Shown here: positions 8,289-44,091 of the stretch, piece after piece
How the letters are laid out: each line of letters begins with the position of its first letter
How positions within the stretch are numbered: position 1 is the stretch's first letter
Assembly: GCF_001632845.1 (NCBI RefSeq)
Contig: NZ_CP011994.1
Coordinates: forward strand, 1,116,001 to 1,180,000
DNA length: 64,000 bases
Origin: Ectothiorhodospira sp. BSL-9
GTDB taxonomy: Bacteria; Pseudomonadota; Gammaproteobacteria; Ectothiorhodospirales; Ectothiorhodospiraceae
Direction: 5' to 3'
Notes under the pieces: model-generated
Databases searched by the model: none
Seen by the model: only the letters and a program-made list of their open reading frames with translations
What the model was told of the DNA's origin: nothing
Translations under genes and position numbers: made by a program

Positions 8289-8306
8289 TGTATCGGTGCC
8301 TTGACA
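8289..8306 (+). promoter_or_regulatory. Distal PpsR/CrtJ-type operator (TGT-N12-ACA)
   Basis: TGT at 8289-8291 and ACA at 8304-8306 are separated by exactly 12 nt, the recognition pattern of the photosynthesis repressor PpsR/CrtJ. The ACA half-site is the last three bases of the -35 hexamer. A second identical-pattern site begins 8 bp downstream. Repressor identity is inferred from the pattern and from the gene controlled. Confidence 0.65.
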
Positions 8307-8328
8307 TCCCCCTGTGTCCTCGTAGACT
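8301..8328 (+). promoter_or_regulatory. Antenna operon promoter, sigma70 type
   Basis: A consensus -35 TTGACA (8301-8306), a 16-nt spacer and a -10 TAGACT (8323-8328) lie 126 nt upstream of the antenna alpha start. It is the best promoter match I noticed in the window. Both hexamers are overlapped by TGT-N12-ACA palindromes, so a bound repressor would exclude RNA polymerase. Confidence 0.7.
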
Positions 8329-8332
8329 TACA
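8315..8332 (+). promoter_or_regulatory. Proximal PpsR/CrtJ-type operator (TGT-N12-ACA)
   Basis: TGT at 8315-8317 and ACA at 8330-8332 with a 12-nt centre, covering the whole -10 hexamer. It is 8 bp from the distal site, the same spacing known for cooperative CrtJ binding at the Rhodobacter bchC promoter (knowledge from the family, not tested here). Confidence 0.65.
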
Positions 8333-8454: not shown

Positions 8455-8667
8455 ATGAGCGAATACAGACCGAGCAAGCCGAGCAACCCCAGAGACGACT
8501 GGAAGCTGTGGCTGGTGGTGAACCCCGGCACTTGGCTGATGCCCATCCTGATGACCGTCCTGGTCGTGGCCTTGGTCGTTCACGCTTTCGTGTACAGCAA
8601 CGACAGCTACAACCCGCTGACCTTTGATGCGTCTGCGGAAGTTGCTGCCGAAGAAGCTGCTGAGTAA
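8455..8667 (+). CDS. Light-harvesting antenna alpha polypeptide (LH2-like)
   Basis: A 70-residue membrane polypeptide that binds bacteriochlorophyll and carotenoid in an antenna ring. The order is a polar N-terminus (1-15), the interfacial motif DDWKLWLVVNPGTWL (14-28), one transmembrane helix (about 28-48) with the bacteriochlorophyll ligand His43, and an acidic Ala/Glu-rich tail. The VVNP motif is typical of peripheral LH2 (puc) alphas; core LH1 alphas have DPRR there. After His43 neither the +11 Trp of LH1 nor the +13 Tyr of LH2 is present (Pro54, Thr56, Phe57), so hydrogen bonding to the chromophore may be altered. It precedes its beta partner, reverse of the usual beta-alpha order. A GAGG ribosome site is 9 nt upstream. 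Confidence 0.9.
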   Translation: MSEYRPSKPSNPRDDWKLWLVVNPGTWLMPILMTVLVVALVVHAFVYSNDSYNPLTFDASAEVAAEEAAE

Positions 8668-8686
8668 GCGATTCCTTCGCTCACTC
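8662..8686 (+). promoter_or_regulatory. Intercistronic hairpin between antenna alpha and beta
   Basis: Arms 8662-8671 and 8677-8686 pair at nine of ten positions around a TTCCT loop; the left arm contains the alpha stop codon. It could protect the alpha message from 3' decay and help set alpha/beta stoichiometry, as intercistronic hairpins do in puf and puc operons (inference). Confidence 0.5.
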
Positions 8687-8717
8687 AAGCCATCGACCAA
8701 GTTAGAGGATTACGATC

Positions 8718-8858
8718 ATGTATGACAACAGCATCTCCGGTCTGACCGAAGAACAGGCCAAGGAATTCCACGAGCAGTTCAAGACCACCTTCACCGTGTT
8801 CATGGTGCTGGCTGCTGCTGCTCACTTCCTGGTGTTCCTGTGGAGACCTTTCTACTAA
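8718..8858 (+). CDS. Light-harvesting antenna beta polypeptide
   Basis: A 46-residue antenna beta subunit. It shows the family pattern SGLTEEQAKEFHEQF at the N-terminal side with conserved His18, a transmembrane helix (about 21-41) with the bacteriochlorophyll ligand His36 in AAAAHFLVFLWRPFY, and the WRP terminus. The His18-His36 spacing of 18 is canonical. The core-antenna Trp at +9 from His36 is Phe here, again favouring a peripheral antenna. An AGAGGA ribosome site lies 9 nt upstream. The gene is 50 nt after alpha and ends the operon; there are no reaction-centre (pufLM) or bacteriochlorophyll synthesis genes nearby, so this is an isolated antenna pair. Confidence 0.9.
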   Translation: MYDNSISGLTEEQAKEFHEQFKTTFTVFMVLAAAAHFLVFLWRPFY

Positions 8859-8893
8859 GGTCTGCTACGCCGCTTCCACGAAGCAGCGGTGCA

Positions 8894-8981
8894 GGTAGAG
8901 GAGTGGCTGATTCGCCCATCAACGATCGACTGTGACTTTTGCAGAGGCCAGTTGATCGGCGGCGAATCAGGCTCCTCTACC
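8894..8981 (+). terminator. Long 3' hairpin of the antenna operon
   Basis: A large imperfect inverted repeat. 8894-8903 pairs with 8972-8981 (10/10), 8907-8916 with 8961-8970 (10/10); then either 8918-8923 with 8951-8956 or, alternatively, 8924-8932 with 8949-8957. The two inner pairings exclude each other. No T-run follows, so it is as likely a 3' stabiliser as an intrinsic terminator. The next gene is convergent, so transcription should end near here. Confidence 0.6.
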
Positions 8982-9126
8982 GTTCCCAGAGGACTTGATA
9001 CCGAGTTTGACTAAAATGCTCGGGTATTGCAACCCCCCCTCAGTACCGAATCCCCAACACGCCTCCCCGGCGTGATGTCTGGCCCCGCCTTTCCCTCCTG
9101 ATGTGCAGTCCCCTCCCCCGGGTACT

Positions 9127-28991: not shown

Positions 28992-29080
28992 TGCCGCTGA
29001 ACCTTACTGACGCCCCGATGACGTGCATCCGCGCCCGGCGTGTCATGTCAACATAACAGTATGCTCAGAAGAACTCTCCC

Positions 29081-31264
29081 ATGACGAGCTCCGAAAAATC
29101 GGGCCCCGCTGAAGACAAAGACATTGTTGCCGCCGCGGCTGCCGCCGCCGAGGAAGGGACCTCGTCACAGCGTAATCTCACCCGCTGGCAATACTGGCTG
29201 CTGTTCGCGCTGGGTCTCACCTATACCAGTTTCCACCTGTTGGTCCTCAACGTCTTCCCCATGGAGACCTGGACCTTCCGGATCATCCACGTGGCTGGCG
29301 CCCTGGTGATCGGTTTCGCCATTGTCGCCGCCTGTGTACCGCCTTCTGATCAATCGCCCAGGCGACGATGGCTACTGGAGTTGCTGCCCATGGTGATCAC
29401 TGTGGGTACGGCGCTCTACGCCGTGGGTGCCATCATTGCCGCCTACCTCATGCGCCATGTATGGGGGTATGACTCATGGTCCATGCCTGACTGGCTGTTC
29501 CAGAGTTTCAGCTGGACCCTGCTGGCCGCCACGGTACTGGGCATCCTTTTCGCCTGGGTCTTCAAGCCCCGTTCGGACCGCATCGGCTGGTACGACTGGT
29601 CGCTGATGGCCACCAGTCTTTCCGTGGGGGCCTACCTGGTCTTCCATCTGGAGGATCTGCAATTCCGATCCGGCGTGATGCCCACCCAGCCGGACTTCTG
29701 GGTCGCGGTGGCCGGTATCCTGCTCATCCTGGAGCTCACCCGGCGTGTGGCCGGCATGGCCCTGGTGGTGATTGCAGCCGTCTTCATCCTGTATGGATTC
29801 ATCGGCCCCTGGCTACCCGGGGTGCTGGAACACGGCGGCTATGAGGCAGATCGCTTCTTCACCTATCTGTACACCGACAACGGCATTCTGGGTCCCACCA
29901 CGGCCGTGTCCTCCACCTACATCATCCTGTTCATCGCCTTTGCCGCCTTCCTGCAGGCCTCCAAGGTGGGTGATTATTTCGTGAACTTCGCCTTCGCCGC
30001 CGCCGGGCGGGCCCGGGGTGGTCCGGCCAAGGTGGCCATATTCGCCAGTGGCCTGATGGGCATGATCAATGGCACCTCGGCCGGTAACGTGGTGGCCACC
30101 GGCTCCCTGACCATCCCCCTGATGAAGCGCGTGGGTTATAAGCCACGCAGTGCAGGGGCCATCGAGGCGGCGGCCTCGTCCGGCGGGCAGATCATGCCGC
30201 CAGTGATGGGGGCGGGTGCCTTCATCATGGCGGAGATCACCGGCATCCCCTATACCGAACTCATCATCGCCGCCCTGATCCCGGCGGTGCTGTACTTTGC
30301 CTCCGTCTACTTCATGGTGGATCTTGAAGCGGCCAAGACGGGGATGAAGGGGCTGCCCTCCAAGGACCTGCCCAAGGTGGGCAAGCTGTTGCGCCAGATC
30401 TACCTGTTCGCGCCCATCATCATCCTCATCGGTGCGCTCTTCATGGGGTATTCGGTGATCCGCGCCGGGACCGTCGCCCTGATGAGTGCCGTGGTGGTGA
30501 GCTGGCTCACACCCTTCCGTCTGGGGTTCGTCGGCTCTGCCAAGGCATTGGAGCTGGCGGCCCGCATGTCCATCCAGTTGATTGCCGTGTGTGCCTGTGC
30601 GGGTATCATTGTGGGCGTCATCGGCTTGACCGGGGTGGGGCTGCGCTTCTCCTCCATGCTCCTGGCGGTGGCTGACAACAGCCAGTTGCTGGCCCTGTTC
30701 TTTGCCATGGGGATCTCGGTGATCCTGGGCATGGGCATGCCCACCACCGCTGCCTATGCCGTGGCCGCCTCCGTGGTGGCACCGGGTCTCATCCAGATGG
30801 GAGTCGAGCCGCTGGTGGCGCACTTCTTTGTCTTTTACTACGCGGTGATGTCGGCCATCACCCCGCCGGTGGCCCTGGCGGCCTATGCGGGCGCGGCGAT
30901 CGCCGGCTCGGAGCCCATGCGCACCTCGGTGACGGCCTTCAAGATCGGTCTGGCGGCCTTTATCGTGCCGTTCATCTTCTTCTATCACCCGGCCCTGCTC
31001 ATGGTGGGTGAATGGTGGCAGATCAGCCAGAGCTTCCTGTCGGCCCTGCTGGGCGTGTTCTTGCTGGCGGCTGCGGCCCAGGGCTGGTTCTTCGGACAGG
31101 CCGGTCGCGTGGTGCGGCTCCTGTTGTTCATTGGTGCCCTGATGGCCATCTCCGGTGAATTGGTCAGCGACATCATCGGTGTGGGCCTGGCGATTGCCTT
31201 GGTGATATGGCAGCTGAAGATGGCTGGTGGGGGTGGAAAACCCTCGACAGTCGAGGCATCGTGA
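29081..31264 (+). CDS. TRAP transporter fused permease (4TM/12TM)
   Basis: A 727-residue integral membrane protein. After a polar N-terminus (1-35), four helices correspond to the small DctQ-like subunit (about 38-170) and the remainder to the DctM-like large permease. Typical sequences: FAAFLQASKVGDYFVNFAFA, GLMGMINGTSAGNVVATGSL, GQIMPPVMGAGAFIMAEITG and ILGMGMPTTAAYAVAASVVA. Fused permeases of this kind pair with TAXI binding proteins, the gene just upstream. Transport is sodium- or proton-coupled import. No stop or frameshift. Confidence 0.93.
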   Translation: MTSSEKSGPAEDKDIVAAAAAAAEEGTSSQRNLTRWQYWLLFALGLTYTSFHLLVLNVFPMETWTFRIIHVAGALVIGFAIVAACVPPSDQSPRRRWLLELLPMVITVGTALYAVGAIIAAYLMRHVWGYDSWSMPDWLFQSFSWTLLAATVLGILFAWVFKPRSDRIGWYDWSLMATSLSVGAYLVFHLEDLQFRSGVMPTQPDFWVAVAGILLILELTRRVAGMALVVIAAVFILYGFIGPWLPGVLEHGGYEADRFFTYLYTDNGILGPTTAVSSTYIILFIAFAAFLQASKVGDYFVNFAFAAAGRARGGPAKVAIFASGLMGMINGTSAGNVVATGSLTIPLMKRVGYKPRSAGAIEAAASSGGQIMPPVMGAGAFIMAEITGIPYTELIIAALIPAVLYFASVYFMVDLEAAKTGMKGLPSKDLPKVGKLLRQIYLFAPIIILIGALFMGYSVIRAGTVALMSAVVVSWLTPFRLGFVGSAKALELAARMSIQLIAVCACAGIIVGVIGLTGVGLRFSSMLLAVADNSQLLALFFAMGISVILGMGMPTTAAYAVAASVVAPGLIQMGVEPLVAHFFVFYYAVMSAITPPVALAAYAGAAIAGSEPMRTSVTAFKIGLAAFIVPFIFFYHPALLMVGEWWQISQSFLSALLGVFLLAAAAQGWFFGQAGRVVRLLLFIGALMAISGELVSDIIGVGLAIALVIWQLKMAGGGGKPSTVEAS

Positions 31265-38223: not shown

Positions 38224-41200
38224 TCAGGAAAGTTTGACGCCGGCCTGCCTGGCCAGTTGTTTGAGCAGCGCGGCCGCTCCATCATGATCGAATTGATCCA
38301 CCCGTTCTGCCAGCTCCTGGGCGGCGCGTGTATCCACCTGCTGGCCCAGGTAGGACGTGACCTGACCCAGCTCCCGTTGGTCCAGCAGCTCCCCCGAGGC
38401 AAGGCATTGCAGGATATGCTGCATCGCTTGTAGCGGGGGCTGTGGGTTCGTGCCTTGAATGCCTTCAGAGCCTTGCGTTTGCGGAAGGGTGGCCAGTTGA
38501 GCCCGGACGGTGTTCAGGGCCTCCATGAAGGCACTCAGGTCGTCTTCGGGAATGGTCTTTCCCTCCTTCAGCATGGTCTCCAGGCGTCCGGCCCTGTGGG
38601 CCAGATCAAGGGCGCCGATGGTGCCCGCCAGGCCCTTGAGGGTGTGGATCATCCGCCCCGTGCGGGGGTTCTCGGGCTGATCCAGGCATCCGCATAGCTC
38701 GTCGAACTCCGCTTCCATCTGCGCTGCGAAGCGTTGCAGGGTGCGCAGATACAGGCTTATGTCGCCGTCGAAGCGCTTGAGCCCCGCCGCCAGATCGAAG
38801 GCCTTCAGTGTATCAGGCAGCTCCGCGCCTGGGGTGTCTTCGTCCCGGGGTTCGACGCAGATGCCGTCGCTTTGCAGCCACTTCTCCAGCGTGTGCAGCA
38901 GCGCCTCACTGTCGATGGGCTTGGCCAGGTGGTCGTTCATGCCGGCGGCCCGCGCCCGCTCGCGATCATCCTCCATCACGGCCGCCGACAGGGCAATGAT
39001 GGGCAGGTCGGGGAACCGTTCGCGGATGTGACGGGTGGCTTCGAAGCCGTCCATGACGGGCATCTGCAGATCCATCAGCACCAGATCGATGGGGTATTGT
39101 GCCACCTGGTCCACCGCCTCGCGGCCATCATTGGCCAGGATGACCCGGACCTGGGTCTTCTTGAGCATCTCCCGGGCCACTTCCTGATTCAGGGCGTTGT
39201 CCTCCACCAGCAGGATGGTCCGACCCTGGAAGCATGGGACTTGCATCAAGTCACTAACGGATGCTTCCGTGGTTTGTTCCGCCACCGCCTTGTTCATGGC
39301 CTCCACCAGGGAACGCGGTGTGACAGGTTTGCTCAAAAAGGCGCTGAAGCGATCCGAATGGGGCACCAGATCCTCCTGGCTGTAGGCGCTGATAATCAAT
39401 GCAGGAATGGTCGTCTGCTGCAGATCTCCCTGCTGGCGCAGCGCATGCAACCGATCCAGTGCCTGCAACCCATCCAGCTCGCCGGGCATCTTCCAGTCCA
39501 TGAGGATGAAGTCAAAGGACATGCCGGCCCGTTCCGCCGCCCGCACGGCCTTGATCGCCGCCTCTCCGCTGTCGGCTTCCTGCGTCTGGAAACCATAGCT
39601 TTGAAGCATGTTGTTAAGCACGATCCGCGCGGTGGCATGGTCGTCCACCACCAGGACACGGGCCCCGGGTCTTATGGATTCATGTGTCGATGCCAGCCCT
39701 TGATCCGGTGACAGCGGCAGGGTGAGTTCGAAATGGAAGCTGCTGCCGGCCCCCGGGCTGGAATCCAGTTGCAACACGCCTCCCATCCTTTCCAGCAGCT
39801 TGCGACTGATCACCAGACCGAGGCCGGTGCCGCCATATTTTCGGGTGGTGGATGTGTCGACCTGTGAGAAGGCCTGGAACAGCCGTGTCTGCTGTTCTGC
39901 ATCGATGCCGATACCCGTGTCGCGCACCTCGAAATGCAGGCGCGCGCCCTGCGCGTCGCGGCCCAACCGACGAATGGACAAGACCACCTGCCCCTGATCG
40001 GTGAATTTGATGGCGTTGCTGAGCAGGTTGGTGAGCACCTGCCCCAGGCGCAGGGCGTCGCCTTCGACGCTGATCGAACCCTGAGTGTCCAATTCGAACA
40101 CCAGTTCGATGCCCTTGGCATCGGCCGCCGAGGCAAACAGGGTGCGCATTTGATCGAGCAGATCATCGATGCGGAAGCTATGGTTCTCCAGATCCAGCCT
40201 GCCGGCCTCGATCTTGGAATAATCCAGGATGTCGTTGATGATGCCCAGCAGCATGCGGGACGAGTCGCGTATCTTGCCCAGGTAATCCCGCTGTTTGGCG
40301 TTGAGTGACGAGCTCAGCAGCAGATCACTCAGGCCGATCACGGCGTTCATGGGCGTGCGGATTTCATGGCTCATGTTGGCCAGGAACTGACTCTTGGCAA
40401 GATTGGCCCGTTCGGCGGTCTCCTGTGCCTGCTTGATCTCGGTGAGGTCGTTGTAGACGGCCACCACTTCGCCGGAGGAAAGTTTGAACAGCGTGTTTTC
40501 GCGCCAGCCCTTGAGGTGCCCATCGTCATACTGGGAGAGGGGCAGGAATTCGCCCTGCCCGGTACGGGCCACCCGGCGCAAGGCGTCCATCAGCCCCATC
40601 TCATGGACGGCGGGGAAGCGCTCCGATAGCCGGTAACCGATGACGTCCTCACGGCATGTGTGGTCCATCTGCTCGGCGGCGGGATTGTAATCGGTGAACA
40701 CGAAGTCCTGGGCATCATTTACCGGCCGGTAGACAGCCACGCCGCTACCCGTCTTCTCGAAAATCCCCCGGAAACGTTCTTTCTCGGCTTCCAGGGCCTG
40801 CTTGGCATCGACGGCCTCGGTGACATCCAGGTCGCTGCCCCGATACCCCCGGAATATCCCCTGTTCATCCATCAGCGGGAAGGCGTGGGTGGACATCCAG
40901 AGTGTTCGTCCCTGTTTGTCGTTAACGGGATTGATCAGTCCTTGCACGGTCTCGCGCCGCTCAATCATCTGGAAGGCTTTGGTCTTGAAGGCCGGCCGAT
41001 GGGCTTCGGGGTAGAGTTCGTAAAAGTATTTGTGGCCCACCAACTCATCACTTGAATACCCCCAGACGGCCTCGGCTACGGGGCTCACGTAGGTAAAACA
41101 CCCTTCAACATCCATTTCCCAGGTGACGTTGCGGCTATGGGCCGCCAGTTGCTGCAGCCGCTCCTCACGGTCCTTGAGTTCCTGTTGCGCCTGTTTGACG

Positions 41201-43926
41201 GCCGATATGTCCTGAATGATCGACCAGATGACTTCCCGCCCTTCTGCGGTGGTGGTCTTGAAGCCATGGAGCAGCACCGGGTAGCGCGTGCCGTCCTTGC
41301 GGATGTACTCCTTTTCGAAGGGGCCGTAGATGCCTGCCCGGTTCATGGACTCCAGCACCCGCTGTTCATCCGGCAGGTATTCTGATGGGGTGACCTCCCA
41401 GTAACTCAGCCGACGAAATTCCTCGGGACTGTAGCCGGCCGGCTCGTTGATGGCGGTGTTGAACTCCAGAAACTCCCCCGTATGGAAGTCGTTCATGGCG
41501 ATGCCCACTGGCGAGAGTTCGAACAGGGTGCGGAACTTGGCCTCCTCCGCGGCCAGTTTGCGGTCGGCCAGGATGCGTTCGGTGATGTCCTCGTTGACCC
41601 CCACCACCCGGATGGCCTTGCCCTGGTCGTCACGGATGGCCCGAGCCAGCCCGCGCAGGCTACGGATCTGGCCGTCACTGGGGCGGCGTATCTGGATCTG
41701 CACATCAAAAGGCGTGTCGTCCTGGATCAGGGCCCGGAAGGCTGGCTGAACCCGGGACAATGATTCGGGCATCAGGGTGTGGGCCCAGTCGTCGAATCGG
41801 TGCCCGAACTGCGCTGGATCCACGCCGTAGAGCATGTACATCCGTTCATCCCAGATCAGGCGGTCCTTCTCCACGTCATAGTCCCAGATGCCCATTCCGG
41901 CGGCCTCGGTGGCCAGTTTCAGGCGGTCCTCGCTGTCATGTAGGCGCTGTTCGGCCTGCTTTCGCTGGGTGATATCCCGAAACACGGCCAGCATGCAGGG
42001 CTGCTCGCCCAGTTCCAGGAGGGTGACCGTCACGTTCACATCGATCAGGCTGCCATCCTTGCAGCGATGGCGGGTTTCAAAATCGTCCCGGCCTTGCGCC
42101 TTTATCCTCTGTATGTGCCTGGCCACCTCGGCGGGCGTTTCCAGGGCCTCGTAGTCCGTGATGCGCAGGCCAGCGAACTCTTCGGCGGTGTAGCTCAGTT
42201 GCTGGTGGGCCTTGGTATTGAACTCCAGAGTGCGGCCATCAGCCACGTCGATCAGCAGCGTGGCGTCGGGATAAAGCTCGAACAGGGTGCGAAACCGCCT
42301 TTCCTGCTCCTCCAGGGCGTTTCGGGTTTCCAGTTGTTCCGTCTGGTCCAGCAGGTAGCCACGCAGGGCCACCAGACGGCCGTCGGCGTCATATTCGGGG
42401 AAGGAGTAGTCGTAAAATCGCCGGTATTCGCCGTCCTTTCTCCTCAGGCGATACTGATGCTCCATGACCGGGGCCCGCCGGGCCAGGTAGTCAGCGATTT
42501 CCCTTTCCACACGGATAACATCCTGTTCGTGGCCCAGATGGGAAAAGCCTTGCCCACCGCTGAGCAGTTCCTCCCGGGTGAAGCCCAGGATATCCTGGGC
42601 GTTGGGGGAGACATACTTGAGGGGCCAGCCGGGTTCGGGCAACCAGACGCAGACTATCACCGGCCCACGGGAAAAGAGCTCCAGTTCCTTCTCCAGCTGA
42701 CGCGCCTTCAAGGCCGCATCGCTGACATCCTGCAGCAACAGGAGGAACCCGCGACTCTGGGCCATGGGCTTGGCCTTGAGTTCCACGATGATCGGGCTGC
42801 CCTCCCGGTTGAACATCACCTCGCGCCCCGCGAACGGCTGACCATCCCGCAGGGATTCGAACACCCGACAGCGTTCCGCAGGGATCCAGCTCTGGGTATG
42901 GTCACAGTGCAGCCAGCTGGAGTCTCCATTCCTGTGGTGTGCGCAGCGAAATAAGTCCAGGGCTTTCTGCCCCAACACCTCGTCGGATGCGTAACCCAGA
43001 AGTTCCGTCGTGGCCTGGTTGATGCGCGTGATGATGCCCGCGTTGTCGATGACCATCAGACCGGCCGGCACCTCTTCGGTCAGGCTCGTCAGGGCCTGGT
43101 TGGTGTCGCTCAGTTCCTGATTGAGCTGGTCCAGTTGCTGCTGATGGTCCTTGAGCAGGTTGAACCAGCGGTTGTAATACAGGCTCACCAGCTCCTTTTG
43201 ACCCACCAGGCCAGTGAAGCGACGATCGGCATCCACCACGACCACCCGCTTGATCCGGTGTTGACGGCAGAAGCGCAGTGCCTCGGAGATGGTGGTGTCC
43301 TTGCTGAGGGTCTGCAGCGGGGAGGTCATGTACTCGCCAATGGGCCGATCCAGATCGGCACTGGCATCGATGAGGTGGATCACGTCCCGCTGGGTGAGGA
43401 TGCCCACGGGGATGCCCTGTTGGATCACGATGGCGGGGGTGAAGTGATCCCGGTCCATGCGCTGCATCACCTGGCGCACGGGCTGGTTCTCCTCCACGGT
43501 GAGGGGCTGCAGGCCGTGGATCAGTTGCCCCAGGCTCTGGCTTTCAGCCAGCACTTCCGGGTCCAGGCTGCAGGCCAGGTCGCTGTAGCTGACAATGCCT
43601 TTCAAGACCCCCTCTGCATCGACCAGGCAGATGTGCTCGGCCTCGTTGCGGATGGCCTTGAGTCCCTCCAGCACGGTCTCTTCGGGGTTCAGGATGGCCG
43701 GCGCAGGGAGCTGCAGATCCCCCAGGGGGGTGGACAGCGGCACACCCTGGATCTGCAGCTTCAGCAGCAGGCTGGAGAGCAGCAGGCGATAGTCATCGCC
43801 GAGGGTGACCACCACATCACGGATATTGTGCCGCCGCATGCTGTGCACCGCCTCTGTCAGGGTGGCGGTCGCTGGTAGGGTGATCACCCTGGCTGTGGCG
43901 ATGCTGCGAAGCTTCGGGAAGAACAT
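38224..43926 (-). CDS. Giant hybrid sensor kinase: CBS pairs, seven PAS, HisKA-ATPase, two receivers, HPt
   Basis: A 1900-residue cytosolic hybrid kinase, far above the usual 600-1200. About 1-245: two CBS pairs (typically adenine-nucleotide sensors; e.g. LRFCRQHRIKRVVVVDADRR). About 285-1165: seven PAS domains in series, several with PAC tails (LFELYPDATLLIDVADGRT, LFELSPVGIAMNDFHTGE). HisKA with [15 protein letters not shown] (His near 1188), ATPase with NLLSNAIKFTDQG, RDTGIGI and GGTGLGLVIS, receiver 1 with ILMDWKMPGELDG, receiver 2 with LVLMDLQMPVMDG, and an HPt with IHTLKGLAGTIGA. It can complete a full phosphorelay alone. I start at the ATG at 43926, where GAGGTGA is well spaced; a GTG two codons earlier is possible. 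First gene of the operon. Confidence 0.93.
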   Translation of the reverse strand: MFFPKLRSIATARVITLPATATLTEAVHSMRRHNIRDVVVTLGDDYRLLLSSLLLKLQIQGVPLSTPLGDLQLPAPAILNPEETVLEGLKAIRNEAEHICLVDAEGVLKGIVSYSDLACSLDPEVLAESQSLGQLIHGLQPLTVEENQPVRQVMQRMDRDHFTPAIVIQQGIPVGILTQRDVIHLIDASADLDRPIGEYMTSPLQTLSKDTTISEALRFCRQHRIKRVVVVDADRRFTGLVGQKELVSLYYNRWFNLLKDHQQQLDQLNQELSDTNQALTSLTEEVPAGLMVIDNAGIITRINQATTELLGYASDEVLGQKALDLFRCAHHRNGDSSWLHCDHTQSWIPAERCRVFESLRDGQPFAGREVMFNREGSPIIVELKAKPMAQSRGFLLLLQDVSDAALKARQLEKELELFSRGPVIVCVWLPEPGWPLKYVSPNAQDILGFTREELLSGGQGFSHLGHEQDVIRVEREIADYLARRAPVMEHQYRLRRKDGEYRRFYDYSFPEYDADGRLVALRGYLLDQTEQLETRNALEEQERRFRTLFELYPDATLLIDVADGRTLEFNTKAHQQLSYTAEEFAGLRITDYEALETPAEVARHIQRIKAQGRDDFETRHRCKDGSLIDVNVTVTLLELGEQPCMLAVFRDITQRKQAEQRLHDSEDRLKLATEAAGMGIWDYDVEKDRLIWDERMYMLYGVDPAQFGHRFDDWAHTLMPESLSRVQPAFRALIQDDTPFDVQIQIRRPSDGQIRSLRGLARAIRDDQGKAIRVVGVNEDITERILADRKLAAEEAKFRTLFELSPVGIAMNDFHTGEFLEFNTAINEPAGYSPEEFRRLSYWEVTPSEYLPDEQRVLESMNRAGIYGPFEKEYIRKDGTRYPVLLHGFKTTTAEGREVIWSIIQDISAVKQAQQELKDREERLQQLAAHSRNVTWEMDVEGCFTYVSPVAEAVWGYSSDELVGHKYFYELYPEAHRPAFKTKAFQMIERRETVQGLINPVNDKQGRTLWMSTHAFPLMDEQGIFRGYRGSDLDVTEAVDAKQALEAEKERFRGIFEKTGSGVAVYRPVNDAQDFVFTDYNPAAEQMDHTCREDVIGYRLSERFPAVHEMGLMDALRRVARTGQGEFLPLSQYDDGHLKGWRENTLFKLSSGEVVAVYNDLTEIKQAQETAERANLAKSQFLANMSHEIRTPMNAVIGLSDLLLSSSLNAKQRDYLGKIRDSSRMLLGIINDILDYSKIEAGRLDLENHSFRIDDLLDQMRTLFASAADAKGIELVFELDTQGSISVEGDALRLGQVLTNLLSNAIKFTDQGQVVLSIRRLGRDAQGARLHFEVRDTGIGIDAEQQTRLFQAFSQVDTSTTRKYGGTGLGLVISRKLLERMGGVLQLDSSPGAGSSFHFELTLPLSPDQGLASTHESIRPGARVLVVDDHATARIVLNNMLQSYGFQTQEADSGEAAIKAVRAAERAGMSFDFILMDWKMPGELDGLQALDRLHALRQQGDLQQTTIPALIISAYSQEDLVPHSDRFSAFLSKPVTPRSLVEAMNKAVAEQTTEASVSDLMQVPCFQGRTILLVEDNALNQEVAREMLKKTQVRVILANDGREAVDQVAQYPIDLVLMDLQMPVMDGFEATRHIRERFPDLPIIALSAAVMEDDRERARAAGMNDHLAKPIDSEALLHTLEKWLQSDGICVEPRDEDTPGAELPDTLKAFDLAAGLKRFDGDISLYLRTLQRFAAQMEAEFDELCGCLDQPENPRTGRMIHTLKGLAGTIGALDLAHRAGRLETMLKEGKTIPEDDLSAFMEALNTVRAQLATLPQTQGSEGIQGTNPQPPLQAMQHILQCLASGELLDQRELGQVTSYLGQQVDTRAAQELAERVDQFDHDGAAALLKQLARQAGVKLS

Positions 43927-44091
43927 TCTCACCTCGGTGGAATTCGACGGCGACAGGTCTTGATGTTACCAAGCCCGGGCGCCGAGGTGAGACCCGCGCA
44001 GCCCGGTCTGCGGTGGGTTATTTGCAATGGCGGTGGAGGGCGGTATCGTGAATACCATGACGAACGGGAGTTCGTCCCAAAGGAGCATGCC
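43927..44091. other. Divergent promoter region between giant kinase and membrane cyclase
   Basis: About 165 bp separate the divergent starts of the hybrid kinase (minus) and the membrane diguanylate cyclase (plus), so it should hold both promoters. I see no consensus hexamer pair; the AAAGGAG at 44077-44083 is the cyclase ribosome site. Confidence 0.35.

Follow-up and report, generated by a model that had tools for sequence, protein, structure and literature searches.

A candidate tandem PpsR/CrtJ operator over a peripheral antenna promoter of Ectothiorhodospira sp. BSL-9

Does the promoter of a light-harvesting operon in the gammaproteobacterium Ectothiorhodospira sp. BSL-9 carry a PpsR/CrtJ switch, and how widely is that switch shared among photosynthesis genes? 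The question arises from a window of 64,000 nucleotides, the whole stretch of DNA analysed here, in the 3.5-Mb, 63% G+C genome of this organism (PMC5064118). An original prediction placed two TGT-N12-ACA palindromes, 8 bp apart, on the promoter of an antenna operon and proposed oxygen/redox repression by a PpsR-like protein. The 44-bp element that they form is very probably a tandem PpsR/CrtJ operator that overlies a peripheral antenna promoter, that of an LH alpha-beta operon (probability about 0.87).

The 44-bp element and the operon behind it

Both palindromes and their 8-bp spacing are read directly from the window, as is the claimed overlap of the first with TTGACA and of the second with TAGACT (Table 1). 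The spacing falls within the approximately 7-9 bp that marks tandem TGT-N12-ACA operators, and the pair covers the -35 and -10 of a photosynthesis gene, these hexamers being assigned by sequence only. The start of the LH alpha gene lies 122 bp downstream of the element. Scored on L115, an identical element, against the extended half-site consensus TGTcaN8tgACA (quoted in the accessible part of PMC2654016), it matches 12 of 12 core letters and 4 of 8 extension letters. Its half-sites are unequal in strength: the inner TTGACA and TGTC are strong, and the left-hand outer TGT is weak, as is the 'ca/tg' extension.

Table 1. Features of the antenna promoter and operon, in window coordinates
Feature	Position	Strand	Details
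Upper TGT-N12-ACA palindrome	8289..8306	+	TGTATCGGTGCCTTGACA; 3' end is the -35-like TTGACA; direct reading
-35-like hexamer TTGACA	8301..8306	+	Direct reading
8-bp spacer between palindromes	8307..8314	+	TCCCCCTG
Lower TGT-N12-ACA palindrome	8315..8332	+	TGTCCTCGTAGACTTACA; covers the -10-like TAGACT; direct reading
-10-like hexamer TAGACT	8323..8328	+	16 bp from the -35-like hexamer; direct reading
LH alpha-subunit gene, 70 aa, first in operon	8455..8667	+	PF00556, 51.2 bits (cut-off 23); translation
LH beta-subunit gene, 46 aa, second in operon	8718..8858	+	PF00556, 40.7 bits
Long hairpin 3' of the operon	8894..8983	+	Fold of 8885-8990: -56.7 kcal/mol, z -6.54

The antenna operon at 8455-8858 has alpha before beta, the reverse of the usual puf/puc gene order (BA). 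The other alpha-beta operons of the genome share its order, and the four LH1-type operons have beta before alpha. At locus L108 (8561-9514), two near-identical LH1-type beta-alpha pairs stand in tandem, 627 bases from start to start. The hairpin that follows the window operon is a possible terminator or mRNA stabiliser, and no T-run was seen at it.

Frequency in the genome and distribution across the order

Single TGT-N12-ACA sites are not significantly enriched in the window: nine were seen and 7.71 expected, and 29 of 100 shuffles reach nine. One of these chance-level singles (TGTCATGTCAACATAACA, 29041-29058) lies 22 bases before an ORF at 29081 that matches the TRAP transporter DctM. Doublets with an 8-bp spacer (N8) appeared in none of 300 simulated windows, and about 0.06 is expected per 3.55 Mb if sites are taken as independent. 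The 3.55-Mb genome contains two exact N8 doublets, the reversed-pattern control none, and widening the spacer to N5-N11 still returns only these two. Both precede LH alpha-beta operons, the second at C1:3061776. With up to two mismatches, N8 doublets are in excess over the reversed control (52 vs 33) and N7 doublets are not (33 vs 31).

Allowing a single mismatch at N8 adds six places in the genome. Four are alpha-beta operons, two of which are one operon at overlapping contig ends, and a fifth is bchC; the sixth, at C1:3148828, has no gene assigned to it and counts against the PpsR reading. The overlap joins positions 1-22379 and 3527690-3550080 of contig G000:C1 (L113, L114 and L173-L176), which share about 22.4 kb, with a match of at least 99.8% in the parts compared; it is probably an untrimmed circular overlap that duplicates one antenna operon. 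Because the contig ends match at this level, C1:14-15 kb and C1:3542 kb were rejected as separate alpha-beta operons, which leaves five distinct operator-bearing alpha-beta operons (six by coordinate). Besides these, the genome holds one operator-free alpha-beta operon and four beta-alpha operons.

An extended motif, TTGACA-N8-TGTCAACGTAGACTTACA, was searched for across 47 genomes of the order, allowing up to three mismatches, a genome being counted as PpsR-positive on a PpsR match at E up to 1e-60. The motif occurs at 35 places in nine genomes, exactly the nine with PpsR; the other 38 have neither motif nor PpsR, and the reversed control found nothing in any of the 47. After removal of the contig-end duplicate, 34 distinct places remain, every one of them ahead of an LH alpha gene. 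This 9-versus-38 split is largely phylogeny, since the motif and PpsR occur in a single genus only, and among the 38 PpsR-negative genomes only one (G007) was shown to be phototrophic. The doublet is kept at the antenna promoters of close relatives, as the original prediction expected: 26 of 30 named Ectothiorhodospira alpha loci reach the threshold, a 27th (L118) has a degenerate upper arm, and L128, L130 and L139 are the loci without a doublet. Three loci outside the genus (L142, L146, L147) have beta before alpha and were excluded as evidence on their promoters; they are uninformative because the scan of 450 bases ahead of alpha runs mostly through the beta gene there.

The bare doublet is not diagnostic of PpsR, because it matches 16 of the 47 genomes and nine of these are PpsR-negative; the reversed control matches five of the same 38 PpsR-negative genomes. 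Five PpsR-negative genomes of another genus (L018-L021, L024) have in common a conserved N9 doublet element (TGTTCCCTTAAGGACACACAGATTRCTTGTGGGTTCC...), which is apparently not an antenna motif. Separately, a PpsR-positive genome contains a second exact doublet, N9 and A+T-rich, at L014 1501-1545.

Conservation at antenna promoters and at other photosynthesis genes

The 34 distinct motif sites and two weaker E. mobilis sites make up an alignment of 36 antenna promoters, which are related sequences (paralogues and orthologues) and not independent draws. Such a block could be just a strong sigma-70 promoter inherited among antenna paralogues, with TGT and ACA incidental. That TTGACA and TAGACT are each present in 36 of 36 promoters fits this account, as do the kinship of the promoters, the ACA contained in TTGACA itself, and the variability of the upper outer half-site (TGT complete in 22 of 36 promoters, its middle G kept in 34; 0.83, 1.63 and 1.42 bits). 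The lower palindrome does not fit it. There the outer ACA is kept in 35 of 36 promoters (2.0, 2.0 and 1.8 bits) and the G and C of TGTC in all 36, so that the inner TGTC and the ACA after the -10 are conserved like the hexamers and unlike nearby columns. TTGACA, GTC, TAGACT and ACA all stand at or near 2 bits per column; the 8-bp spacer is mostly variable, apart from its first base (T in 34 of 36), and the 20 bases upstream of the element carry about 0.2 bits per column, near random. Two bases past the ACA, a CC is invariant in the 36 promoters. Neither the TGTC between -35 and -10 nor the trailing ACA is an element of a sigma-70 promoter, and their conservation calls for a binder.

Operator-free paralogues bear on the same point. 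The doublet is absent from the alpha-beta operon at C1:3451 in the BSL-9 genome, from its E. haloalkaliphila counterpart (L139), and from a single antenna operon apiece in two E. mobilis genomes (L128, L130). They retain TTGAC(A/C)-N16-TA(G/C)ACT and have lost the outer TGT, the inner TGTCA and the outer ACA together, which argues against simple inheritance of a promoter. The same doublet at bchC, a non-homologous gene, argues in the same direction, and a sigma-70 promoter with incidental half-sites is judged quite improbable.

At bchC, nine of nine PpsR-positive genomes have an N8 doublet that keeps 11 of the 12 core letters, 85 to 89 bp upstream of the start. The crtE-crtD intergenic region has a weaker doublet of 9-10 core letters, also in nine of nine (N8 in eight, N9 in one). 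No doublet was found in the 650 bases ahead of the LHC match in the four beta-alpha (LH1-type) operons of the genome. Stretches of 16-20 kb around ppsR, including bchFNB, and around LH1-type operons (L011, L105, L106, L108, L109, L110), scanned without use of annotation, gave none above threshold; both negatives count against the PpsR reading.

These promoters also bear on whether the operator is instead the inner inverted repeat TTGACA-N8-TGTCAA, bound by another regulator. The inner arms are indeed the best conserved at antenna promoters. However, the window promoter reads TGTCCT and not TGTCAA, the right arm at bchC is gGTCAC, and the outer TGT is conserved at antenna promoters and present at bchC in nine of nine genomes. 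At crtE/crtD, the inner arms are poor and non-palindromic and the outer TGT and ACA are good, the opposite of the antenna pattern, so the common denominator is the palindrome pair and not the inner repeat. A different regulator on the inner repeat is thus very improbable, and the tandem palindromes remain the preferred operator.

The regulator, its action and comparison with known systems

The original prediction stood or fell with a PpsR/CrtJ homologue in the genome, and one is present. It matches PpsR-CrtJ (TIGR02040) at about 537 bits (537.1-537.7, cut-off 275.4) over model positions 1-442 of 442, and its PAS region gives a 171-bit alignment with the solved PpsR 4hh2. C-terminal matches are to a Fis/NtrC-type helix-turn-helix (HTH), and the protein has the C-terminal HTH with a redox cysteine that characterises PpsR-CrtJ. 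This HTH-region cysteine (ERLC) is found in all eight relatives whose sequence reaches that point and is presumably the equivalent of CrtJ C420. A mid-protein cysteine is kept in eight of nine, with Ser in relative L032.

The BchG gene adjoins ppsR, and the gene next to ppsR encodes two B12-binding domains, PF02310 and PF02607, both over their cut-offs. Such domains are expected of AerR/PpaA, and on these matches the ORF is putatively AerR/PpaA-like; further ORFs beside ppsR read as putative bchP, bchF, bchN and bchB. The arrangement published for Ectothiorhodospira is ChlG-ppsR-ppaA-bchFNB, and Ectothiorhodosinus mongolicus is described as without ppsR and ppaA (both in the accessible part of PMC8877833). 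Within the window, a 1902-aa ORF at 38224-43932 combines CBS, many PAS, kinase, receiver and Hpt domains.

A phototroph without PpsR provides a natural contrast. G007 is identified as phototrophic by bchC and LHC genes, and no PpsR match was found in it even at E 0.01. It has no extended motif, no doublet reaching nine core letters within 300 bases ahead of bchC, and none found in the crtE-crtD interval. Its alpha-beta antenna operon does have a weak doublet with N7 spacing (10 of 12 core and 2 of 8 extension letters), which counts against the PpsR reading; such doublets number 10 per 135 kb, a background count that includes this one and another overlapping it, so that decay of an older operator or chance may account for it.

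In the proposed mechanism, PpsR dimers would occupy both palindromes and touch across the 8-bp spacer, binding cooperatively. Bound PpsR would cover the -35 and -10 and exclude RNA polymerase when the cell is oxidised, and the neighbouring AerR/PpaA-like B12 protein may modulate its action. The majority of alpha-beta antenna operons and bchC would thereby come under joint PpsR control, with crtE/crtD a probable addition. The proposal of oxygen/redox repression by a PpsR-like protein is supported, with binding, repression and redox response as predicted properties of the system.

PpsR might also bind redox-independently, or act with AerR/PpaA as a light activator, and not as an oxygen-dependent repressor. 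In Rubrivivax, its binding is redox-dependent at 9-bp and not at 8-bp spacing (accessible text of PMC4452267); CrtJ occupies R. capsulatus bchC both aerobically and photosynthetically, with AerR relieving repression (excerpts of PMC5362033); and the mid-protein cysteine is replaced by Ser in relative L032. Against this stand the conserved HTH-region cysteine and R. capsulatus CrtJ itself, which binds better when oxidised and also meets 8-bp spacing at bchC (same excerpts). Such a mode of action is unlikely, while keeping appreciable weight, and oxygen-dependent repression by PpsR is the favoured account.

A broader reading is held tentatively, at somewhat less than an even chance. Ectothiorhodospira may sort its antenna genes by the 44-bp PpsR doublet, most alpha-beta operons having it and one alpha-beta paralogue and the LH1-type operons lacking it. 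Oxygen or light would then alter the choice of antenna by way of PpsR and AerR/PpaA, and the operators of one relative would have decayed after it lost PpsR. The findings outline a predicted PpsR regulon of purple sulfur bacteria that is dense and open to experiment, with one operator common to many antenna operons. Operator-free paralogues in the same genomes and a PpsR-less phototrophic relative allow the doublet to be tested without building mutants first. A literature search whose scope excluded most subscription journals yielded no recognised description of PpsR sites on Ectothiorhodospira antenna promoters.

The doublet adds a further, well-supported case to a known type of switch and is no new mechanism. 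The kind of operator is known because tandem gammaproteobacterial sites were predicted in 2009 (PMC2654016) and an Ectothiorhodospira ppsR has been published (PMC8877833), as far as the accessible parts of these papers go. Its geometry was claimed to be that of Rhodobacter bchC, and the spacing agrees: in R. capsulatus, the CrtJ palindromes of the bchC operator lie at -47 to -30 and -21 to -4, i.e. two TGT-N12-ACA sites 8 bp apart over the -35 and -10 (excerpts of PMC5362033). Unlike that operator, the present one lies on an antenna operon (as well as on bchC), belongs to a gammaproteobacterium and is a predicted binding site.

Rubrivivax gelatinosus pucB likewise has tandem PpsR sites on an antenna promoter, with a spacing of 9 bp vs 8 bp here, and a ppsR mutant de-represses pucB about 190-fold under aerobic conditions; binding at the 8-bp crtI site showed no redox dependence there (accessible text of PMC4452267). 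Congregibacter litoralis KT71 is, like BSL-9, a gammaproteobacterium with tandem predicted PpsR sites, 12 of its 15 predicted sites being tandem and 7 or 8 nt apart (accessible part of PMC2654016). KT71 is an aerobic phototroph, whereas the present organism belongs to a purple-sulfur lineage and, unlike KT71, combines several peripheral antenna operons, one operator and a putative AerR/PpaA-like partner. What seems less ordinary here is that almost every alpha-beta antenna operon carries the one operator and that paralogues without it stand alongside.
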